Notes under the pieces: generated by a model
What the model saw: the letters and a program-made list of their open reading frames with translations, nothing else
Database searches by the model: none
What the model was told of the DNA's origin: nothing
From: Alteromonas macleodii ATCC 27126
Lineage (GTDB): Bacteria > Pseudomonadota > Gammaproteobacteria > Enterobacterales > Alteromonadaceae
Assembly (NCBI RefSeq): GCF_000172635.2
Contig: NC_018632.1
Span: forward strand, 744,001 to 808,000
Direction: 5' to 3'
DNA: 64,000 nt
Position numbers and translations under genes: made by a program
In this document: positions 43,547 through 60,486 of the stretch, piece by piece
Numbering within the stretch: position 1 is the stretch's first letter
How the letters are laid out: each line of letters opens with the position of its first letter

Positions 43547-43978
43547 CTACAAGTATACCGTTTCGTATTTGATTGGCGCTAGCAGCTTGAGAATACGGTT
43601 TTCTTGCTGATAGGTTAGCCCCACATCGCGCATCGCGCCTTGGACATACTCCACCAATATGTAAAATTCACGCTCCTTAATATTGAGACCCGTGTGAGAC
43701 TCCAACATTGTTTTTCCATCATATTCGCAAGGCCCGCCAATAAGCTCGCATGTTTGCAATACAAGTTGATCTCTTAAATGTTTTTTGGGAACACCTTTGA
43801 AGTAATGACCAATTACGGGGTCAGTGTAAATTCGTGTAATCGCTACACCGTATATGGTATTGAGCGTTTTATGGCCGCCAATTTCTTCATAAAGGCTTTG
43901 TTCAGGAGCGCTGGCGCATGCGGTTATCAATACGCTTAACGCAGCAATTACCATTAACCGGAAGCAGTGTCTGATCAT
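43547..43978 (-). CDS. Group 1 truncated haemoglobin, predicted lipoprotein
   Basis: Haem protein of the 2-over-2 globin family fused to a lipoprotein signal: a short basic N-terminus, hydrophobic core and lipobox LITAC (Cys21). The globin part has SLYEEIGGHKTLNTIYGVAI, YTDPVIGHYFKGVPKKHLRD, CELIGGPCEYDGKTM and the proximal His in LESHTGLNI. 143 aa total with about 115 for the globin. Anchoring a truncated globin at the periplasmic face is unusual; oxygen, NO or peroxide handling there is inferred. It is 12 bp downstream of a DUF3034 gene on the same strand and probably co-transcribed. Confidence 0.9.
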   Translation of the reverse strand: MIRHCFRLMVIAALSVLITACASAPEQSLYEEIGGHKTLNTIYGVAITRIYTDPVIGHYFKGVPKKHLRDQLVLQTCELIGGPCEYDGKTMLESHTGLNIKEREFYILVEYVQGAMRDVGLTYQQENRILKLLAPIKYETVYL

Positions 43979-43990
43979 TTCGTTCCCCTA

Positions 43991-44938
43991 TCAAAAAGTG
44001 CTGTTTACCGTTAGATAAAATCCTGAAGAACTTTCTTGCAAAGGTAAATTGCCCAAATCCACATAGGCAGCGGTAATCGAAATAGATTTATTTGGGAAGT
44101 AGGCAATAAAGGCATCAACAACGGTGTCTTCTTCAGCTAAGCCTCCTAATCGATTGGTTTGCGTTCTAAACTCTGTGCCAATTGCTGTGGTAGGGCTAAT
44201 TAATACCGCTAAAGAGCCCTCCCATTCGAGCTTAGCGCTATCGTTGTTTTCAGAACCAAATCCAAGTAAGCCAAACACATTCGCCTTTGTATATCGCGCG
44301 GTAAGATTGGTGAGTAAATTATAACCTGATGAAGTGCCTAACCACAGTTTCGTGGCTGAAAGGTAAACGTCGGTACCACTGTCGTCTTTCGCACCTAGCA
44401 GCATTGGTACGCCTACGCCGGGCAAGGGGGTCGTACCGTCGGGTAGCGAAAGAGAGCTGTCGTAGTCTCTGTTTTTCTTGTATTGTGCGCCGATGGATAC
44501 TTGGGGTATCCATGAGTTTTGAGTAAAGACGCCATCGCCAAGAACCTTAACTTTTGCACCGATTATATCTTGCTCAATGGTGGTGCTGTTGGCGTTTGTA
44601 ATAGCACCTTCTGTGAGTAACGCGAAAACGTTGCTTGTTAACCCTGAAGCAATATCGAGGCGCTGTCGCTGCACGCTAAGCTCTATACGGTCAAACAAAC
44701 TAACACTTGCCCCTGCTGTTGTAAGGGAATAATCGCTTAGGCTTAAGTACTGAATATTTGCCGAATAACTGACCTCTTCTTTACTCGCGTATCCGCCAAT
44801 AAATGCCCAAGGCGTAATGCCGCCACCCGCAGTGCCTTCGAAACCTGTAATACCACCAGATGCAATTAAGCGAGATCCACTGTCTGCGAGTACGGGAGAA
44901 GATGCGAGAAAAAGAGGGAGGAGCAAATGCCTAATCAT
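43991..44938 (-). CDS. DUF3034 family outer-membrane protein
   Basis: Exported protein with signal peptide (MIRHLLLPLFLASSPVLADS) and a beta-rich body typical of DUF3034: SRLIASGGITGFEGTAGGGI, PWAFIGGYASKEEVSYSANI, then alternating strands and a C-terminal YLTVNSTF with terminal Phe, suggesting an outer-membrane barrel. 315 aa is in family range. The family has no assigned function. Its tight link (12 bp) to the globin lipoprotein suggests a two-protein envelope system. Divergent from the nitroreductase gene. Confidence 0.82.
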   Translation of the reverse strand: MIRHLLLPLFLASSPVLADSGSRLIASGGITGFEGTAGGGITPWAFIGGYASKEEVSYSANIQYLSLSDYSLTTAGASVSLFDRIELSVQRQRLDIASGLTSNVFALLTEGAITNANSTTIEQDIIGAKVKVLGDGVFTQNSWIPQVSIGAQYKKNRDYDSSLSLPDGTTPLPGVGVPMLLGAKDDSGTDVYLSATKLWLGTSSGYNLLTNLTARYTKANVFGLLGFGSENNDSAKLEWEGSLAVLISPTTAIGTEFRTQTNRLGGLAEEDTVVDAFIAYFPNKSISITAAYVDLGNLPLQESSSGFYLTVNSTF

Positions 44939-45868: not shown

Positions 45869-45900
45869 TACCTGACAACACAAGCTTGCTATGAATATAA

Positions 45901-45936
45901 CAAAGCCCGCTTAGCGCGGGCTTTGTTTTGTTTTCT
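45901..45936 (+). terminator. Intrinsic terminator after nitroreductase
   Basis: CAAAGCCCGC TTAGC GCGGGCTTTG: 10-bp perfect stem, then TTTTGTTTTC. Placed 32 bp after the stop codon and before the end of the convergent minus-strand operon; may serve both. Confidence 0.93.
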
Positions 45937-46021: not shown

Positions 46022-46942
46022 CTAATGTAAGAAGTATTGCTCTGCGAGTTGTTGATGAATGTCGGCAAAATCAATTTGAAGCTCGTCGATATAGTTGTGA
46101 AGCGCTCGTCCTCGAAGTGTCGCAACTGGCTGCTTTTCTAAATCACTAATACTGTGGTCAATTCGCTCTATCATCGCTTCATTGTCGGGCAAGTTGAGGA
46201 ACAAACTCTTTAGTTTGTTCAAGCAGAACAACACACTTCGCGGAAACTCCTTGCTATGTAGCATAAATAACAACACATCGCCCGGACGTATGCGAACGCC
46301 CATTTTCTGGCGATACATTTGGTAGCCGCTCAGGCTTCTAAGTACGCTCATCCATAAGATGTTTTCGAATGGCAGGTCACTCATGTCTTCGGTAAGGGTC
46401 GATGAGCGAACGTCAATTATCCTTGATGTCATATCAGCCCGCTCCAATGCCGCACCAAAGCGCCAGAAGAAATAGCCTTCATCGTGGCTCATGCTGGCAT
46501 CCATGGTTCCAAACATTAGTAAACACTGATTGATTACCTGTTTTAAACTTGCAAAGCGCCCGCGTTTACTTAGAAAGCTTGTACTGTTCTCTTTTACCGA
46601 TAAGTGAAGTGCGTTCAGCGTTTCCCACACTTCTCTTGGAATAACGTCTCTGATTGTGCGCGCATTATCTCTTGCGTATTGAAGGGAATTTAATATGGAA
46701 GACGGATTGCGTGTGTCTACCGTAAGAAACTTAACGACATTCTTCTCGCTGTATTCATTATAAATGGCCTCAAATGGCTCGCGATTTCCCGTTATGTCTA
46801 GCAATGGCTCCCAGCCTGGCGAAAACCCTTTGGGTAAGTCCATCAGCAGGAGGTTGTTAACATTGATCAAGCGAGCGAGATTTTCAGCCCTTTCAACGTA
46901 GCGCGCCGTCCAATAAAGCGTTTCAGCAACTCGTGATAACAT
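46022..46942 (-). CDS. Alpha-E domain protein
   Basis: All-helical alpha-E (DUF403) domain protein of unknown chemistry, last gene of the transglutaminase/ATP-grasp/alpha-E operon. The opening MLSRVAETLYWTARYVERAE carries the family signature of an Arg, an Ala-Glu pair and Tyr-Trp followed by ERxEN. The rest is helical (NARTIRDVIPREVWETLNAL, FWRFGAALERADMTSRIIDV). ATG 46942 (306 aa) is set by AGGAGGG about 6 nt upstream; the in-frame extension upstream lacks this. It follows the ATP-grasp gene by 11 bp. The same signature recurs in the C-terminal half of the 865-aa protein further up the operon. Confidence 0.93.
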   Translation of the reverse strand: MLSRVAETLYWTARYVERAENLARLINVNNLLLMDLPKGFSPGWEPLLDITGNREPFEAIYNEYSEKNVVKFLTVDTRNPSSILNSLQYARDNARTIRDVIPREVWETLNALHLSVKENSTSFLSKRGRFASLKQVINQCLLMFGTMDASMSHDEGYFFWRFGAALERADMTSRIIDVRSSTLTEDMSDLPFENILWMSVLRSLSGYQMYRQKMGVRIRPGDVLLFMLHSKEFPRSVLFCLNKLKSLFLNLPDNEAMIERIDHSISDLEKQPVATLRGRALHNYIDELQIDFADIHQQLAEQYFLH

Positions 46943-46953
46943 GTCAGTCCCTC

Positions 46954-48429
46954 CTAATCCACAATCCAAGTATCTTTACTACCACCGCCTTGTGATGAAT
47001 TGACCACGAGGGAACCTTTAACAAGGGCAACCCTAGTGAGGCCTCCCGTTGTGACATAGGTGTGAGTACCTGATGAAAGGATGAAAGGGCGAAGATCCAC
47101 ATGTCGCCCTTCAATTGTAGAACCGTCAATAGTGGGGACGGTAGACAAATTCAAGGTAGGCTGTGCTATCCAGTTTCTGGGGTCAGCCTTTATTTGAGCA
47201 AGGGTTTCTTGCTGCTGCTTTTTGGTTGATTTCGGTCCAATCAGCAAGCCGTAGCCTCCCGATTCATTGGCAGGCTTTATTACAAGTTTGTCGATATTGG
47301 CTTCAACATATTTGAAGTCTTCGGGCTCATAACAACGGTAGGTCTCTACGTTAGGCAGCTTAATCTCTTCATCCAAATAATAGCGAATCATGTCAGGCAC
47401 ATAGGTGTACACCACTTTATCGTCTGCCACGCCAGCCCCCGGCGCGTTGATCAGCGTTACCTTGCCTTTACTCCACGCTCGCATTAGCCCGGGAACGCCC
47501 AGCATCGAATCAGGGTTAAACGCTTCTGGGTCTAAAAACATATCGTCAATACGGCGGTAGATAACGTCCACTCTGCGTAGGCCCTTAATCGTCTTCATAT
47601 ATACGCAGTCGTCTTTTTCTACGGTTAGATCTCGACCTTCTACTAGCTCACACCCCATTTCCTGAGCAAGATAGCAGTGTTCAAAGTAGGCAGAGTTGTA
47701 GATACCGGGTGTAAGTACCACAACTTCAGGTTTATCCTGAGGACGCGGTGATAGACTCGACAACATGTCGAACAGCTGTGAGGGATAGTCGTTTACGGGA
47801 AGAATATCCATTTTCTCGAACATGTCTGGAAAGACACGCTTCAGCACTGAGCGGTTTTCTAACATGTAAGACACGCCAGAAGGTACGCGCAGGTTGTCTT
47901 CCAGTACGTAAATGGTGCCGTCGCTATCTCGCACTAAATCAGAGCCGCAGATATGTGCCCAGATACCGTTTGGGGGAGAAACACCCACGCACTGCTTTCT
48001 AAAGTTCACGGACTTGTCGAGAAGCGCTTTAGGAAAAACGCCATCTTTAATAATCTTCTGATCGTGATACAGATCGTCGATGAACATATTAAGGGCTTTT
48101 ACGCGCTGTTTAAGCCCTTCTTCTACGCGTTGCCATTCTTTATTTGGGATAATGCGAGGAATGATATCGATGGGCCACGCTCGGTCTATTGAGCTTCCTT
48201 CACCATAAACCGTGAAGGTAATACCCATTTCTTTCACCACCAACTCGGCGGCGTCTTGCGCGTTTTTTAACTCTTCTTCACTTAATTGCGACAAATAATC
48301 CATTAACGGCGCACCGTGAGGGCGGGGTTTTCCATTTTTATCTATCAGTTCATCGTAAAACTCGGAAAAATTGCAGTGTTCCAGACTCACAGCTTTCGAT
48401 AACGTCTGACTTTGTTTTTGACTACTCAA
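46954..48429 (-). CDS. Circularly permuted ATP-grasp protein (type 2)
   Basis: Predicted ATP-dependent carboxylate-amine ligase with a permuted ATP-grasp fold. Blocks in order: FYDELIDKNGKPRPHGAPLM, GVSPPNGIWAHICGSDLVRD, RVDVIYRRIDDMFLDPEAF, LGVPGLMRAWSKGKVTLINA with APGAGVADDK, then LVIKPANESGGYGLLIG (the phosphate/ATP-binding loop with Lys) and RHVDLRPFILSSGTHTYVTT. The key Lys and Gly-rich loop are intact, so it should be active. TTG start is supported by AAGGAG 5-6 nt upstream (491 aa). It is 10 bp downstream of the small transglutaminase gene. The ligated substrates are unknown. Confidence 0.93.
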   Translation of the reverse strand: MSSQKQSQTLSKAVSLEHCNFSEFYDELIDKNGKPRPHGAPLMDYLSQLSEEELKNAQDAAELVVKEMGITFTVYGEGSSIDRAWPIDIIPRIIPNKEWQRVEEGLKQRVKALNMFIDDLYHDQKIIKDGVFPKALLDKSVNFRKQCVGVSPPNGIWAHICGSDLVRDSDGTIYVLEDNLRVPSGVSYMLENRSVLKRVFPDMFEKMDILPVNDYPSQLFDMLSSLSPRPQDKPEVVVLTPGIYNSAYFEHCYLAQEMGCELVEGRDLTVEKDDCVYMKTIKGLRRVDVIYRRIDDMFLDPEAFNPDSMLGVPGLMRAWSKGKVTLINAPGAGVADDKVVYTYVPDMIRYYLDEEIKLPNVETYRCYEPEDFKYVEANIDKLVIKPANESGGYGLLIGPKSTKKQQQETLAQIKADPRNWIAQPTLNLSTVPTIDGSTIEGRHVDLRPFILSSGTHTYVTTGGLTRVALVKGSLVVNSSQGGGSKDTWIVD

Positions 48430-48439
48430 ACTACGCTCC

Positions 48440-49318
48440 TTATTGTCCGCGATTCATATCCACTGAAACGTCTAAAACCTGATTTCCACCACCAAACATA
48501 ATGCCTTTAAGCGGTGTGATATCTGCAAAATCTCGTCCGACAGCTAACGTAACGTGCTGGTCGTAGGGTTTCAAATTGTTGGTCGGGTCGTAATCAATCC
48601 AACCAGAGCCCGGTACAAAAAGCGCAACCCAAGCGTGGGTGGCGTCTGCACCAGTAAGCTTTTCCTGACCCGGTGGTGGAATCGTTTCGATATATCCACT
48701 TACATAGCGCGCCGCCAAACCAATACTGCGTAAGCAAGTAAGTGTTAGGTGGGCATAGTCCTGACATACGCCCCGCTTGTGCTCAAACACGTGGCTTACT
48801 GGGGTGTTAATCGTCGAGAAGGACGGGTCAAAGGTAAAATCGTTAAAAATGCGGTTCATTAAGTCGTCGCACGACTCTACGATAGAGCGGCCAGGCGTAA
48901 ACGACATCAAGGTATAGTCTAAAATCGCTTTATTGGCCTGCGTTAAGCGAGTAGGAATACTGAAAAACTGCGCTGCCAACATGCTCTGATCTACTGGGTA
49001 GCGGATTTGATCTCTCACGCTTTCCCATTGTGTATTGTGCGCAAACAGACCTTGTAATGGTGCTCCTTGAATTTCAACTTCACTGGTTGCGATGACCTGC
49101 ATTTCTTCATGCAAAGTGGGTATTTCAAACACCGTTACCGTGTTGTCGAAGTAGTCTTTAAACTCTGCCTGATAGTCAGGTTCAGGCACAATGGTGACAC
49201 TGGCGCTAATCCTCTTTTGATTAAAGGTGTTTAGCGGTATTAGGCGGGCATGGTTTTGTGTCAGGCTCACCTTGTCGGAATACTTGTAGGTAGTGACGTG
49301 ACGAATGGTGTACTTCAT
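48440..49318 (-). CDS. Transglutaminase-like cysteine protease-fold protein
   Basis: Cytoplasmic protein with N-terminal bacterial transglutaminase domain (MKYTIRHVTTYKYSDKVSLT, NHARLIPLN) and transglutaminase core. The catalytic triad appears intact: Cys at about 182 (RGVCQDYAHL), His at about 226 (ATHAWVALF) and Asp at about 241 (IDYDPTN). No signal peptide. 292 aa. The start overlaps the upstream 865-aa gene by 4 bp. In this operon context a peptidase, transpeptidase or deamidase acting on a peptide product is the usual suggestion; no substrate is known. Confidence 0.93.
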   Translation of the reverse strand: MKYTIRHVTTYKYSDKVSLTQNHARLIPLNTFNQKRISASVTIVPEPDYQAEFKDYFDNTVTVFEIPTLHEEMQVIATSEVEIQGAPLQGLFAHNTQWESVRDQIRYPVDQSMLAAQFFSIPTRLTQANKAILDYTLMSFTPGRSIVESCDDLMNRIFNDFTFDPSFSTINTPVSHVFEHKRGVCQDYAHLTLTCLRSIGLAARYVSGYIETIPPPGQEKLTGADATHAWVALFVPGSGWIDYDPTNNLKPYDQHVTLAVGRDFADITPLKGIMFGGGNQVLDVSVDMNRGQ

Positions 49319-51912
49319 TTTTTCACCTCACTGTCATTCGGACTACTGGCATCAGGCGCACTAGCTAACGGAGCTGTCGCTTCCTCATCTATTGGTTTTT
49401 CGACGACCTGTACAGACGCGGTGCCAATGCCGGACCAGTGCAGTTGTGACGCAGGCTTAGTGTGGCTGAAGTATTGAGTTTGCATCATTTCGCTAAATTT
49501 CTGCAGTTGTGATGTCACGCTTTTTAGTAAAGACACTAAGCCCGAAGGTGCTTGATTAGTGTTGATATTTAAGGTCTGTCTGTCAGCCAGCGCGAAGCTT
49601 GCTTTTAACTGCAACAGAATTTTCTCTGTGGTACTTAAAAAACCGGGCTTGGCGCTTACCGGCAAGCTTTCGCAAAGCTCGGTAATTTTTTGGATTTGAT
49701 GAGCTAATGAGCGTGGGTACTCGGCATCTAAAAGCAATAGCTCTAATCCCGTTTCGATACTTTGAAACGCACGGTATCGACGCCTGTGGGTAATAGCGCT
49801 CACTTGCGCCACCAACACGATTTCCAGCACGTTTTGTTGCTCAGCCTCGGGCAGAGGGAATTGCAGCAGATTTTGCACCATAGACACAAGCTGTTTACTG
49901 CGCTCTAACCGTCGTCCAATTTCTATCATAAAGGCGCCATTACTTTTAGACAGGCTGTCTTGAATAGAGCCGTTAAACGCCATGGTAAGCCCAATTAATT
50001 TATCGAGTGTACTTTGTAATCTGTGCGTCGGCGTCTGCTCGGTAATGGTACTAAATTCGTGATGTTCCTCTTCTAGGCTTTCGATAATGCGCAAGCTGTC
50101 ATAAGAAAGTAGCTCTCTCACTTGCAGCGCGCTTTGCACCACCATATTAATGCTACTGTAAAGGCCGCCGGCGAAGGAGTTATCGTTAATTAGCGATATC
50201 ACTAATTCTTTGAATCCTCCTTCGTTGACGGTTATTTTCGCTGCGTCTGGTGTAAGGTAAGGGTAAATTAATGCCTGCTGTTCTAACCCAGATTTAAATC
50301 GTAGCAGGGCATTTCTGTGCGCCTCATCGGGATAAATGGCAAGCTCAGTGAATTTGTCTATAAATACCCTGACCAACCGAATCACGTTTTCACTTCGCTC
50401 TACGGCGCAGCCCAACCAAAATAGGTTTTCCGCCGTTCTGCTAGGCAGTAGCCCCTCGACTAGCGCTAAGTCTGCATCTGATTGCAGTGATTTGGGAATA
50501 GAAGGCGCACGCTCTTGTGGCGGACCTATGGTTTCAACCCACGTGTCCTTTATTTCTGTTTTGCCATCGGTGCGCGCTGCCTTGGGCGTAAAACACATGG
50601 CTGAGGGGAGAATAAAAACTTGCCCTTGTGAGTACAACGCATAGCAACGCATAATGACTGGCTTACTTACCAGCCCTTTATCGTGCCAAAATGGCGTATG
50701 CGAAAGATTCACTTTTTTTCGCCAGAATAGGTCGGTTAACGCTACCGTTTGTAGTGTATTTGCAATAGCGTCAGCGTCTTTTTCACCGTCGTATTTTAAT
50801 TCAGGGTCAACATAACTTAATAACTCATATCCCGACCAATCGCTTTGCGTAAGGTTTTCTGCGGGAAAGGTTTCTTGTTGGCGAAGCAGTAAAGATTCAC
50901 CATTAAAAAACTCAGCGGCCCTATGCAAGTTGTTTTTGATGGCAGGAATTTGAATAGCGCCATTGCCCAAGGGGTTGAGCAATACCACGTTCTGAGTTCG
51001 GACTGCATGAATAAGCCCGGGAATCCCGAACGCTGAGTAGTCAACTTGCTCCAGTGAATCTAAGAATCTGTCCTCAATCCAGCGCAAAATGACATCAACT
51101 TTTCGTAATCCGTCTAAAGCTTTAAGCCAGACTTGTCCTTTCCTCACCGTTAAATCAGCGCTTCTTACCAGGGTGTACCCCATGTAAGTGGCAAGATAGG
51201 CTTGCTCAGAATAATACTGATCGTCTGGACCTCTGCACAAAATAACAATGCGCGGGTCATTAATCGCAGCGGTTTCCTGGTCAATAGCATGCTGAAATTG
51301 CTCAAAAAAGCCTGCTATTCGCTGCACACCACATTCAGCAAACTCCTCACTCATTACCCTTCTTGCCACAATCCTGTTTTCCAGCAGCAGTCCAAGACCG
51401 CGAGGGAACTGGCAGTGATCGTTCAGCATGAAATACTCGCCGTTTACATCTTGGGCTATGTCAAACGCGCTTAGAAATACACCGTTGTTTAACGAGGAAA
51501 GCGTGTGGCTCTCGGCAAGATAGTAAGGATGACGCATCAAGTGGTCTGTAGAGAAAACGCCGTTGGTTAGCGTTTGCCTGTCTGAGTTAAGGTCTAATAG
51601 CACTTTATTGAGCAGTAAGACTCGCTGTTCAATGCCGCGGCTGAGCATTTCCCAGTCTTGGCTTGAAATGAGCATAGGCAAGGGATCTAGCTGCCAATTC
51701 TGGTGTTCATCGATATCCGCAAAACCACTGTTTCGCATTAGTCGGCGAATTTCATTTGCTCTAAAGGACAGCTCGTCACTGTTAAGGCCTGACAAACGAG
51801 AAAATAACGTATTGAGCAGACGTTTGCTCTCATCCGCAGCAGTGCTCGAATTGATATAGCTGCTAAGCCATTCTGGCATGGTGAAATCTTCACTCATAAA
51901 ATCGATTGTCAC
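49315..51912 (-). CDS. ATP-grasp-like/alpha-E fusion protein with degenerate ATP-grasp
   Basis: 865-aa fusion. The N-terminal ~480 residues match the permuted ATP-grasp protein encoded downstream (LLENRIVARRVMSEEFAECG, VDVILRWIEDRFLDSLEQVD, FGIPGLIHAVRTQNVVLLNP). However, the segment equivalent to KPANESGGYG is absent and the following strand reads SKPVIMRCYALY instead of RHVDLRPF. The ATP site is therefore probably dead or very altered. From about 487 comes the alpha-E domain (LPSRTAENLFWLGCAVERSE), then a Pro/Ala/Ser/Asp-rich tail. Start: GTG 51912 lies 5 nt after the upstream stop (coupled); ATG 51897 is an alternative. Neither has a good Shine-Dalgarno. Confidence 0.88.
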   Translation of the reverse strand: MTIDFMSEDFTMPEWLSSYINSSTAADESKRLLNTLFSRLSGLNSDELSFRANEIRRLMRNSGFADIDEHQNWQLDPLPMLISSQDWEMLSRGIEQRVLLLNKVLLDLNSDRQTLTNGVFSTDHLMRHPYYLAESHTLSSLNNGVFLSAFDIAQDVNGEYFMLNDHCQFPRGLGLLLENRIVARRVMSEEFAECGVQRIAGFFEQFQHAIDQETAAINDPRIVILCRGPDDQYYSEQAYLATYMGYTLVRSADLTVRKGQVWLKALDGLRKVDVILRWIEDRFLDSLEQVDYSAFGIPGLIHAVRTQNVVLLNPLGNGAIQIPAIKNNLHRAAEFFNGESLLLRQQETFPAENLTQSDWSGYELLSYVDPELKYDGEKDADAIANTLQTVALTDLFWRKKVNLSHTPFWHDKGLVSKPVIMRCYALYSQGQVFILPSAMCFTPKAARTDGKTEIKDTWVETIGPPQERAPSIPKSLQSDADLALVEGLLPSRTAENLFWLGCAVERSENVIRLVRVFIDKFTELAIYPDEAHRNALLRFKSGLEQQALIYPYLTPDAAKITVNEGGFKELVISLINDNSFAGGLYSSINMVVQSALQVRELLSYDSLRIIESLEEEHHEFSTITEQTPTHRLQSTLDKLIGLTMAFNGSIQDSLSKSNGAFMIEIGRRLERSKQLVSMVQNLLQFPLPEAEQQNVLEIVLVAQVSAITHRRRYRAFQSIETGLELLLLDAEYPRSLAHQIQKITELCESLPVSAKPGFLSTTEKILLQLKASFALADRQTLNINTNQAPSGLVSLLKSVTSQLQKFSEMMQTQYFSHTKPASQLHWSGIGTASVQVVEKPIDEEATAPLASAPDASSPNDSEVKK

Positions 51913-51917
51913 TTAAA

Positions 51918-54900
51918 CTATAGTGTAGGAGGCCGGCGCAAATCCAGCGTATTTGGATATTCTTCATTCTCGGCTTCTTCCAAAGGTAAATCAAAATCAC
52001 CGCGACCTTCATGGTCAACCACATACTGTGTAGCAAAGTGAGGCGACCACTCAGGCATGGAAGGCGATGCCACCGACGGGGTATGACCGTGATCCCAGAA
52101 TCTGGCAATACGCCTTCCTTCAGCCTCAAAAGCGTTGACCGGCATAGTAGAGAAATTGCGCCCGCCCGGGTGACTAACATGATAGGTAAATCCGCCTAAA
52201 GAGCGGCCCGCCCAGCTGTCGTAAACATCAAAGACCAACGGCGCGTGCACGCCAATGGTCGGGTGAAGCGCCGATGCAGGGTGCCACGCTCTAAAGCGAA
52301 TTCCGGCTACATGTTCTCCGCGAATATTGGTGGGTTTTAACGGTAATCTGCGGCCGTTACACGACACTATGTAACGGTCTGTATGCATGTTTGAAACAGT
52401 GAGCTGGACGCGTTCAAGTGAGCTGTCAACATAACGCGCAGTTCCGCTGCCTGTCGCTTCTTCACCCAATACATGCCATGGCTCAATAGCGCTAAAGAGA
52501 TCTAGCTTAATTTGACCGACTTCACGGCTACCGCAGCGAGGGAATCGAAACTCAAAAAACGGATCGAACCATTCAAGCTTAATGGGAAAGCCTGCTGCGT
52601 TTAGGTCGCTACATACTTCAGCGATGTCTTGCCGAACGTAATGGGGCAGCATAAAACGATCGTGAAGCTCTGTGCCCCACCGCACCAGTTTCTTCTTGTA
52701 TGGTTGTTTCCAAAACCACGCTAGCAGCGTGCGCAGAAGAAGCATTTGCATCAAACTCATTCTGGCGTGAGGAGGCATTTCAAAACCGCGAAACTCTACA
52801 ATGCCCAATCGCCCCGTGGGCGAGTCGGGGTTGAATAGTTTATCGATACAAAACTCTGCACGATGGGTATTCCCTGTCAGGTCAGTCAGCAAGTGCCGAA
52901 GGAGGCGGTCAACCAACCAAGGTGAGGGAACTTCGCTATCGGGAATTTGAGAGAATGCAATTTCCAGTTCGTACAGCCTTTCATCCCGCGCTTCATCGAC
53001 ACGAGGCGCTTGGCTAGTCGGGCCGATGAACAGGCTCGAAAACAAATAGGAAAGCCCAGGGTGATGCTGCCAATAGGTAATAAAGCTTCGCAGAATGTCT
53101 GGACGCTTTAAAAACGGGCTCTCTAACGGTGTCGGCCCACCCATTGTCACGTGATTTCCACCTCCTGTGCCGGCGTGCCGTCCATCAAGCATGAATTTTT
53201 CTGTACCGAGTCGACATGACTTGGCCATGGCATAAAGGGCATGGGTATTTTTTACCAGAGTATGCCAATCGGATGCAGGGTGAACATTGACCTCGATAAC
53301 ACCGGGGTCGGGGGTAACCGCAAACTTTTCAACGCGACTGTCGTAGGGCGGAGTATAGCCTTCTAATATCACGGGAATATCAAGTTTATCAGCGATGGAC
53401 TCAATAGCGTTCAGCAGCAGCGCATAATGTTCAAAGTGGCTTACAGGCGGCATAAATACGCATAACTTTCCGTCGCGCACTTCTAAACAAAGGGCGGTTA
53501 ATACTGACTTTTCACTAATATACCCTTTGTGAGACGTTGGGGATGAGAGCGTGCCGGTCATGTCAGCAGGATCCCGTTCTGCTAGCGCATCTGGACTACC
53601 TAAGCTACTCAACGGCAGCCGATAACCTAATGGAGAGTCGCCCGGTAACAAGAAGCAGTGTCCTCGTTTAAACGACCATACGCTACTTTGCCATCCGTCA
53701 AAAACCGTGTCGTAGGCGAGGGGAATAATAAAGCCCACGGGTGTATCTAAACCCTGTTCCAACTTGGCTAAAAAGCCTTTGCGGGTCATTGCGTGAAGCA
53801 GTTCTGGGGCGTCGGGTGACGGGTCTTGCGGAAGGTTACCCTCTTGCCATAAATGATACAGCACGTCTTCATAAGCGGTGACAACAACCTTTTCACTTAA
53901 ACCCAACGCCGTGGCTAGTTGAGTAGCAAATGTTTGCGCTTCGTTTTGTGAGAAAGAATAGGTGGCGTTGTTGTCAGCAAGTAGTGCTTGATTATGCCAG
54001 ATAGGCGTTCCGTCTTTACGCCAGTAACAGGCATATTGCCAGCGAGGTAATGGCTCTCCGGGATACCACTTACCCTGTCCATAATGGCGAAAGCCACTAT
54101 TACTAAAGCTTTCCACCATTTTCATGAAAAGCGTGTGCGCTAAAATGCGTTTCTCCTTGCCGTCGGCGGCGGTATTCCACTGTTCGCTTTCCATATCATC
54201 AATGGAAATAAACGTGGGTTCGCCGCCCATGGTGAGGGTTATCCCTGCATTAACTAAGTCTTTGTCTATTTGGCCTCCAAGCCTATCGATAGCGGCCCAC
54301 TGGGCATCGCTGTAAGGCTTGGTTACACGGGGCGGTTCGTGTAAACGTTGTACGTTGTTGTAGAAGCTAAACGTTGATTCACATTGATCGATGGCACCGG
54401 TAACCGGCGCTGCCGACAGTGGTTCGGGGGTACACGCCAATGGAATGTGCCCTTCACCTGCGAAAAGCCCAGACGTAGGGTCAAGGCCAATCCATCCCGC
54501 TCCGGGAACATATACCTCACACCATGCGTGCAGGTCGGTAAAGTCTTTTTCCGGGCCACTGGGGCCATCAAGAGACTTTTCATCACTTGCCAATTGAACC
54601 AGGTAGCCGGAAACAAAGCGCGATGCCAGCCCTAAATGCCGAAATAGCTGAACCAATAGCCAAGCCGAGTCACGACACGAGCCGCCTTTTTTCTGCAGAG
54701 TTTCGTCGATACTCTGGACTCCGGGCTCCATGCGCACACCGTATTCAATCAGGTCGTATACGGCGCGGTTTACACCCACTAAGAAATCTACGGTAGCAAC
54801 AGGCTCTTTAGGCTGCTGATTGTCAATTAACTGCTGAAACAAAGACGATGCATCTTCTGTCTCAAGGTAGGGTGTTAAGTCTCTCGCCAGCCGTTTTTCG

Positions 54901-55217
54901 TACGAAAACGGAAAGGTTTCAGCGTAAGACTCTAAAAAGAAGTCAAAGGGGTTAATAACCGTCAGTTCGGCAACAAGGTCTACGGTGAACCAGAACTTTT
55001 TAGTCTTCTCAGGAAATACTACGCGTGCAAGGTAGTTACCAAACGGGTCTTGCTGCCAATTGATAAAATGATTCTCAGGATAGACTTTTAAAGAGTAACT
55101 TTTTATTGGTGTTCGACTATGCGGAGCAGGGCGAAGGCGGAAAGTATGCGGTGACATACTGATACTTCTATCGTAGTGGTATTCAGTATGATGTGTGATC
55201 CCTACAGTGATTGTCAT
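51918..55217 (-). CDS. Transglutaminase-DUF2126 protein
   Basis: First gene of the operon, 1099 aa. N-terminal transglutaminase-N part (MTITVGITHHTEYHYDRSIS, FRLRPAPHS), transglutaminase core with Cys at about 177 (GGSCRDSAWL), His at about 229 (DLHAWCEVYV) and Asp at about 244 (GLDPTSGL), then the large DUF2126 region (about 320-1090; LTMGGEPTFISIDDMES, GTGGGNHVTMGGPTPLESPF, FRGFEMPPHARMSLMQMLLL, GFTYHVSHPGGRNFSTMPVN). DUF2126 contains GTGGGNH and related motifs resembling glutamine-synthetase-type amidoligases in part; that link is an inference. ATG 55217 is supported by GGAG 8 nt upstream. No signal peptide. Confidence 0.93.
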   Translation of the reverse strand: MTITVGITHHTEYHYDRSISMSPHTFRLRPAPHSRTPIKSYSLKVYPENHFINWQQDPFGNYLARVVFPEKTKKFWFTVDLVAELTVINPFDFFLESYAETFPFSYEKRLARDLTPYLETEDASSLFQQLIDNQQPKEPVATVDFLVGVNRAVYDLIEYGVRMEPGVQSIDETLQKKGGSCRDSAWLLVQLFRHLGLASRFVSGYLVQLASDEKSLDGPSGPEKDFTDLHAWCEVYVPGAGWIGLDPTSGLFAGEGHIPLACTPEPLSAAPVTGAIDQCESTFSFYNNVQRLHEPPRVTKPYSDAQWAAIDRLGGQIDKDLVNAGITLTMGGEPTFISIDDMESEQWNTAADGKEKRILAHTLFMKMVESFSNSGFRHYGQGKWYPGEPLPRWQYACYWRKDGTPIWHNQALLADNNATYSFSQNEAQTFATQLATALGLSEKVVVTAYEDVLYHLWQEGNLPQDPSPDAPELLHAMTRKGFLAKLEQGLDTPVGFIIPLAYDTVFDGWQSSVWSFKRGHCFLLPGDSPLGYRLPLSSLGSPDALAERDPADMTGTLSSPTSHKGYISEKSVLTALCLEVRDGKLCVFMPPVSHFEHYALLLNAIESIADKLDIPVILEGYTPPYDSRVEKFAVTPDPGVIEVNVHPASDWHTLVKNTHALYAMAKSCRLGTEKFMLDGRHAGTGGGNHVTMGGPTPLESPFLKRPDILRSFITYWQHHPGLSYLFSSLFIGPTSQAPRVDEARDERLYELEIAFSQIPDSEVPSPWLVDRLLRHLLTDLTGNTHRAEFCIDKLFNPDSPTGRLGIVEFRGFEMPPHARMSLMQMLLLRTLLAWFWKQPYKKKLVRWGTELHDRFMLPHYVRQDIAEVCSDLNAAGFPIKLEWFDPFFEFRFPRCGSREVGQIKLDLFSAIEPWHVLGEEATGSGTARYVDSSLERVQLTVSNMHTDRYIVSCNGRRLPLKPTNIRGEHVAGIRFRAWHPASALHPTIGVHAPLVFDVYDSWAGRSLGGFTYHVSHPGGRNFSTMPVNAFEAEGRRIARFWDHGHTPSVASPSMPEWSPHFATQYVVDHEGRGDFDLPLEEAENEEYPNTLDLRRPPTL

Positions 55218-55493
55218 GCTATGGCTCCATTGCCAATTGATATACAAACAGCACAAAAAATCACCTTATATCCAAGTGAGTAAACTTACAAGAAGAAGCG
55301 ATGGGCAGAAATGTAAAACCCAAAAATTATGTGCTTCAACGGTAATCTCGTTACTCACGATATTGAATAATGTATACTCACCCCAATATATGCGCTATAA
55401 AACAGCGCGTGTTTTAAGCGCGACTTTTCCTTCACAGATAGACAATTCACTACTTTGAGAGCACTAAACTTTCGCCACGGGTTTTCATCCTAC

Positions 55494-60135: not shown

Positions 60136-60486
<351 letters not shown>

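Follow-up and report, generated by a model that had tools for sequence, protein, structure and literature searches.

Background

Gene clusters that bring together ATP-grasp, glutamine synthetase (GS)-like, alpha-E and transglutaminase (TGase) proteins have been predicted to serve amide ligation (Iyer, Abhiman, Burroughs and Aravind 2009, as cited in the accessible parts of PMC5666114, PMC6376114 and PMC3597751). A described relative is the Anbu operon of Yersinia bercovieri and Pseudomonas putida (PP_2685-2688), in which the NTN-hydrolase Anbu stands with an ATP-grasp, an alpha-E and a TGase; PP_2687 and PP_2688 are probably the alpha-E and the ATP-grasp, respectively, and the Y. bercovieri ATP-grasp homologue releases phosphate from ATP, according to the available text of PMC6376114. 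Another is the Burkholderia cenocepacia cluster I35_5080-5083, whose authors describe DUF404/407, DUF403, TGase and large TGase proteins, the last of which probably carries DUF2126. In the accessible texts of the literature found, no product is named for such clusters, and no paper was found under the name DUF2126. Here, I analyse a five-gene operon of Alteromonas macleodii ATCC 27126 that encodes an ATP-grasp and an alpha-E both as separate genes (the split form, genes 4 and 5) and joined in a single protein (the fused form, gene 2), together with a TGase-DUF2126 protein (gene 1) and a stand-alone TGase (gene 3). The window, that is, the whole stretch of 64,000 nucleotides analysed, covers positions 744001-808000 of a 4.65-Mb genome assembled as a single contig.

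The operon shares with the clusters of Iyer et al., as outlined in the accessible parts of the citing papers, the component families and their close gene neighbourhood; unlike them, it belongs to a genome without a detected NTN-hydrolase (Anbu), its split ATP-grasp and alpha-E genes end the operon instead of starting it, and its fused ATP-grasp is without the predicted site. It has in common with the Anbu operon the split ATP-grasp, the alpha-E and the TGase, and differs in having no Anbu and in adding DUF2126 and the fused gene. Four of its five gene types recur in I35_5080-5083, going by the authors' descriptions in the available text; the fused gene is not among the four reported there.

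Results

Loss of predicted ATP-grasp site residues in the fused form

When glutathionylspermidine synthases are aligned with the ATP-grasps in MAFFT, the Asp, Glu, Asn and two Lys conserved in that family, which I take to be Mg/ATP ligands, fall on D164, E177, N179, K338 and K385. Gene 4 has the conserved Mg/ATP-site residues and the Gly-rich loop of an ATP-grasp ligase, and gene 2 is without E177, N179, D336, D337, K338, G391 and D445. Relative to gene 4, it keeps D164 and carries the replacements E177N, N179H, R181Q, D336Q, D337I, K338P and K385P, and it is gapped at the Gly-loop columns 391 and 394 in the alignment of the two. Likewise, PDB 3n6x, a putative glutathionylspermidine synthase of the circularly permuted (CP) ATP-grasp type and the sole solved relative by sequence, matches nearly all of gene 4 (residues 25-490 of 491, E 4e-157), yet only residues 74-354 of gene 2 (E 9.5e-32).

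The same loss is found across the fused family. A first comparison took 57 split and 55 fused ATP-grasps from loci L010-L106, rows beyond length or score limits being dropped (110 of the 112 rows differ). It was extended to 61 of each form by six fused proteins (from Azospirillum, Caballeronia, Shinella and Sphingomonas plasmids and from genomes G129 and G050 of the class panel described below) and four split ones (from Tsukamurella and Hymenobacter plasmids and the same two genomes), the plasmid sample being six of the 117 plasmid records with a match. N179, D336, D337, K338 and G391 are each present in all 61 split and in none of the fused proteins; E177 and G394 are each in 61 split and a single fused protein, and D445 is in 60 and none. 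Common to both forms are R447 (60 split, 61 fused) and K485 (59 and 58). As 51 of the 61 fused ATP-grasps keep D164 and 46 keep K385, part of the predicted site survives in this group. Loss of active-site residues in all family members, which the original prediction, a reading of the window's sequence alone, had named as counting against it, is seen for most of the predicted site in the fused ATP-grasps (none or one of 61 retaining each of the eight residues from E177 to D445 listed above) and is not seen in the split ones (60 or 61 of 61). No statement that the fused ATP-grasp is inactive was found in the accessible literature; subscription papers or Iyer et al. 2009 may already mention it.

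Descent and selection

In a maximum-likelihood (ML) tree of the ATP-grasps, a single branch separates the 57 split from the 55 fused rows across phyla (SH-aLRT 100). Because the tree divides by form, the split/fused paralogy must be old, or else the set spread as a unit; it was not born in this operon. By the ATP-grasp tree alone, the copies of the operon are not each other's nearest, as a tandem duplication would have left them. Seven fused rows of the Alteromonas/Psychromonas type share a branch that is 2.57 changes per column long, as estimated with a quick ML method that warns about long branches.

Gene 2 is not decaying, to judge from its open frame and its dN/dS of 0.055 against genome G020; by half, the value is 0.063 for the ATP-grasp and 0.045 for the alpha-E (residues 471-865), and the other four genes give 0.012-0.064. 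In comparisons beyond G020, dS is mostly saturated. Gene 2 does evolve faster: its identity to the closest named locus, that of Alteromonas sp. KUL42 (85% across gene 1), is 77%, versus 85 to 94% for genes 1, 4 and 5.

Transglutaminases, DUF2126 and alpha-E

The Cys-His-Asp triad is conserved in the two TGase families, with C in 64, H in 65 and D in 65 of the 65 stand-alone rows, and C in 85, H in 85 and D in 84 (one gap) of the 85 DUF2126-linked rows. The DUF2126 region of gene 1 takes a GS fold in a structural model, and E333, E642, N644, N688, H689, R786, E808 and R810 are invariant in 41 of 41 rows, presumably resembling GS motifs; going by the model, DUF2126 would be an ATP-dependent amidoligase of the GS fold. 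It is single-copy in the operon, with no second GS-fold ligase to pair with.

In alpha-E, R27 and E176 are present in all 55 split and all 55 fused rows. R104, R183 and W206 are found in every split row, other residues being commonest at these sites in the fused rows, and the additional Arg, Asn and Trp residues that mark the split form are missing from the fused family. The model of the split alpha-E (gene 5) is all-helical, with a mean pLDDT of 92.8 and no Foldseek match in the PDB at E <= 0.001; the alpha-E profile gave four weak matches among PDB sequences (best E 0.077), designed helical proteins by name, and no solved structure could convincingly be called a relative. The motifs said in the original prediction to match between copies do so for the TGase triads and in part for alpha-E, and fail to do so for the ATP-grasp pair.

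Distribution and gene order

Two genome sets were surveyed, a near set of 40 genomes including A. macleodii itself and a class panel of 276. DUF2126 occurs in 5 and alpha-E in 15 of the near set; in the panel the figures are 53 and 84, all 53 DUF2126 genomes having alpha-E. The fused gene, defined in the panel as an open frame of at least 840 residues with an alpha-E score below 250 bits (a long-framed match of 242 bits in G266 was assigned to the split form by hand), is found in 26 panel genomes, 24 of them with DUF2126. Since no fused gene was found without a split alpha-E (26 of 26 in the panel, 5 of 5 in the near set), while the split form occurs without a fused gene in 58 panel genomes, a partnership between the two is supported, and gene 2 probably works with other proteins of its operon.

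The set of five is complete in 11 of 80 named loci in the sequence split ATP-grasp, alpha-E, gene 1, fused gene, TGase, and in four (L027, L028, L053 and L058, the last with a 334-bp gap) in the order of the window, with the split pair last; in the remainder the cluster is broken up, rearranged, truncated at a contig end or short of a partner in the sequence covered. Among the loci of the ATP-grasp tree, L081 lies on a contig labelled Helicobacter pylori PMSS1, a metagenome-assembled genome (MAG); its fused gene groups with that of an Aliarcobacter MAG, so the species label looks doubtful.

Anbu was read from weak PF00227 matches by score, range and frame length. In the near set, the five DUF2126 genomes have two alpha-E genes each and no Anbu-class match, and the ten single-alpha-E genomes all have at least one. 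The idea that Anbu and the DUF2126/fused set exclude each other, perfect among these 40 relatives, was rejected as it fails in the class panel. There, six weak PF00227 matches (G119, G130, G176, G198, G229 and G237) having been excluded by hand, the cluster has Anbu nearby in 8 of 26 genomes with the fused gene and 32 of 58 without it (Fisher p 0.058); counted anywhere in the genome, Anbu is present in 12 of the 26 and 37 of the 58 (p 0.155). Of the 80 named loci with DUF2126, 17 also contain an Anbu-type open reading frame (ORF).

The nitrogen link of relatives

According to the accessible part of PMC7801951, the P. putida genes PP_2685-2688 form an operon that is probably under NtrB/NtrC control and is induced when nitrogen is limiting; in the first column of a table there, PP_2686-2688 stand at 12.61, 11.04 and 14.66, and PP_2685 at just 1.12. 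For the four-gene cluster of B. cenocepacia, mutation of ntrC brought log2 changes of -6.0 to -9.4 when nitrogen was limiting, and the cluster figures in the list of common sigma-54/NtrC targets (available text of PMC5491218). Furthermore, as far as the accessible parts of the two papers go, in marine metagenomes the cluster domains are associated with domains of urea use (PMC3597751), and strong expression of Anbu during nitrogen starvation is reported (PMC6376114). Given these reports, as far as accessible, of dependence on NtrC/sigma-54 in B. cenocepacia and of induction in P. putida, to call the operon an undescribed system, as was originally done, is too strong.

A sigma-54 motif (a match at 10 or more of 12 positions) was sought at 169 cluster starts preceded by a gap of at least 50 bp, which include close relatives and are not fully independent, and at 553 control genes. 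It precedes 10 of 40 split ATP-grasp starts versus 8 of the 553 controls; it precedes 4 of 61 gene 1 starts and none of the 37 fused, 19 Anbu and 12 other starts. By analogy with these relatives, the operon of the window may be used under nitrogen limitation.

Operon layout and flanking features

Table 1. Features of the operon and its flanks, in window coordinates
Feature	Position	Strand	Basis or remark
Gene 1, TGase + DUF2126	51918..55217	-	ORF 51918-55256, ATG at 55217; TGase = residues ~1-290
Gene 2, fused pseudo-ATP-grasp/alpha-E, 865 aa	49315..51912	-	Pfam CP_ATPgrasp + Alpha-E
Putative pseudo-ATP-grasp half of gene 2, residues 1-470	50503..51912	-	Residue comparison with gene 4
Alpha-E half of gene 2	49468..50448	-	Pfam Alpha-E
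Gene 3, stand-alone papain-like TGase	48440..49318	-	Triad Cys185/His228/Asp244
Gene 4, split CP-ATP-grasp ligase	46954..48429	-	Pfam CP_ATPgrasp; 3n6x match
Gene 5, split alpha-E	46022..46942	-	ORF 46022-46969, internal ATG at 46942; Pfam Alpha-E; all-helical by model
Intergenic region 5' of gene 1	55218..55454	-	Sigma-54 -24/-12 consensus scan: no match
Palindrome, 12-bp stem	45899..45927	unstranded	Separates convergent nitroreductase gene from operon 3' end; terminator-like on + strand

ORF coordinates and starts agree with the layout first proposed, five minus-strand genes with spacings of 5, -4, 10 and 11 bp from gene 1 to gene 5 (with the chosen starts), and Pfam bears out both the order of the domains and the presence of TGase, ATP-grasp and alpha-E twice each, DUF2126, present once, having gone uncounted as a module. 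Gene 1 matches Bact_transglu_N, Transglut_core and DUF2126, and gene 3 the first two of these; the scores in all five genes are far above cut-off, so the matches are not due to chance. With DUF2126, CP-ATP-grasp, alpha-E and TGase genes together on one strand, the operon is a DUF2126 cluster. A hydropathy scan of the five proteins in 19-residue windows (maximum 1.29 anywhere, 0.31 near the N-termini) indicates no membrane span or signal peptide, although no dedicated signal-peptide program was used; this is in line with the earlier reading, supported to this extent, of a system probably located in the cytoplasm that would form and cleave amide bonds, as Iyer, Aravind and co-workers predicted for such clusters according to the accessible citing texts.

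The palindrome may serve as a bidirectional terminator; terminator-like sites across the region number 12 against a shuffle mean of 11.6, i.e. no excess, and sigma-70-like sites 9 against 13.0, i.e. not above shuffles. Elsewhere in the window, a bacterial-type globin gene adjoins a DUF3034 gene (43547-44938, minus strand) and an RNase P class A RNA gene lies at 60136-60486 on the plus strand.

Neighbours of related clusters were sorted into 26 recurring groups, one representative being scanned from each of ten. A putative zinc metallopeptidase (PF15887 plus zinc ribbon; scanned member L014:2017-3141) recurs beside clusters, its BLAST group covering 13 loci (L012, L014, L016-L022, L025, L053, L068 and L093), and is so annotated at L117:2234-3295 and L121:5366-6447. 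PF15887 was not found in the A. macleodii genome; it is present in 10 of the 40 near genomes (nine of the ten Anbu-type genomes plus G033) and looks like a linked component, every carrier having alpha-E. In seven loci of Methylococcaceae or Methylococcales (L031-L033, L035, L038, L042 and L043), a citrate synthase gene (scanned member L042:5561-6865) separates gene 1 from the fused gene. A protein of ~420-436 aa adjoins the cluster in nine loci (scanned member L037:2692-4002, without a Pfam match), and genes for DNA photolyase and photolyase-related proteins recur near same-genus Anbu-type clusters (L016, L017, L019-L022 and L025; one member per group scanned).

Discussion

The explanation preferred here, with moderate confidence, is that the five genes form one cytoplasmic machine for ligating and cleaving peptide (amide) bonds, in which gene 2 is a conserved non-catalytic partner, rather than the same series run through twice. 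Two ATP-using ligases of different folds, the split CP-ATP-grasp of gene 4 and the GS-fold DUF2126 domain of gene 1, would make amide bonds, and the papain-like TGase-type domains of genes 1 and 3 would cut or transfer amides. Gene 2 would have no ATP chemistry and would act as a binding or scaffold partner tied to alpha-E, its own partner probably being genes 4 and 5, the active ATP-grasp/alpha-E pair, or else gene 1. This draws together the computed domains, modelled folds, site residues lost and retained, purifying selection, co-occurrence and old ATP-grasp paralogy; the residues suggest that gene 2 is catalytically inactive, and the product would presumably be a peptide.

Several points weigh against this explanation. 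Profile-profile comparison of the ATP-grasps with glutathionylspermidine synthase was not significant, and its global mode gave nothing usable; the residue mapping is thus that of one MAFFT alignment combined with the Mg/ATP roles ascribed to the residues. A protein that is a pseudo-enzyme by sequence may still bind nucleotide. The fused set comes mostly from DUF2126-anchored loci, with only four members from plasmids, which leaves room for an intact site in fused proteins elsewhere. When Anbu of Y. bercovieri was the bait, the other operon proteins did not bind specifically, a result limited to that bait (accessible part of PMC6376114). As for nitrogen, the induction of PP_2686-2688 persists (14.16, 16.02 and 19.61) in the third column of the P. 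putida table, the rpoN mutant by the available text (PMC7801951), which argues against strict sigma-54 dependence in that species. Finally, consensus scans found no sigma-54 (-24/-12) or NtrC-like match upstream of the window operon, unlike what is reported of the sigma-54/NtrC-dependent I35_5080-5083 in the part of that source available, and counts of both patterns across the window are not above shuffles. Nitrogen control of the window copy was therefore rejected, and the link to nitrogen comes from the relatives.

It is possible, if rather doubtful, that the product is a soluble nitrogen-rich or gamma-linked peptide, dismantled by the TGase-type amidases and serving as a nitrogen store or in scavenging, not in protein tagging. 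This is compatible with the preferred explanation and would suit the induction in P. putida, the NtrC dependence in B. cenocepacia and the marine association with urea-use domains (PMC3597751, as far as accessible). Against it, the window copy has no sigma-54 site, and no nitrogen-metabolism family was met among the ten scanned neighbour representatives of the 26 groups. A more detailed scheme, equally tentative, makes the pseudo-ATP-grasp/alpha-E the dedicated non-catalytic partner of an active ligase in an asymmetric system: a carrier peptide or substrate would be held by the pseudo half and extended by the ligases of GS and ATP-grasp fold, and interchangeable hydrolases (Anbu, the PF15887 zinc peptidase or, as here, TGases alone) would dismantle the product under nitrogen stress.

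Somewhat less probable, and on balance unlikely, is a fused ATP-grasp re-purposed for another chemistry or nucleotide site built on letters of its own, not a scaffold. The fused group does have such a signature (R179 in 51, Q181 in 55, E336 in 52 and N337 in 39 of 61), beside the nearly universal R447 and K485. The window protein, however, retains only Q181 of R179, Q181 and E336, positions 179 and 336 being His and Gln, and it belongs to the clade of seven on the long branch, yet is under selection; a binding role suits this better than a strict active site.

Very improbable are two complete rounds, one fused and one split, with both ATP-grasps acting as ligases in succession. Three module types do occur twice, with the triad kept in both TGase families, and on such grounds the original prediction had read the operon as two rounds of one series; this cannot be upheld, for the site residues N179, D336, D337, K338, G391 and D445 are in none of 61 fused proteins, the Gly-rich loop of the window copy is gapped in the alignment, the ATP-grasps divide on one branch and DUF2126 has no second copy. 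Least probable of all is a plain Anbu operon with its usual members, for although genes 3, 4 and 5 are of its TGase, ATP-grasp and alpha-E types, the only PF00227 (Proteasome-family) match in the genome (88 bits) belongs to the strong class common to all 40 near genomes, and no Anbu-type ORF was found in the 20-kb locus L026.

Conclusions

In this known but uncharacterised kit for making and cleaving amides, the apparent second ATP-grasp is without the predicted ATP-binding residues, so that a working enzyme seems to be joined by a conserved twin that does not work. Alpha-E, which marks such clusters, occurs in 84 of the 276 genomes of the class panel. If the operon does have one catalytic ATP-grasp and, in DUF2126, a GS-fold ligase, the puzzle would reduce to which of its proteins use ATP, which just bind, and what accumulates under nitrogen limitation.

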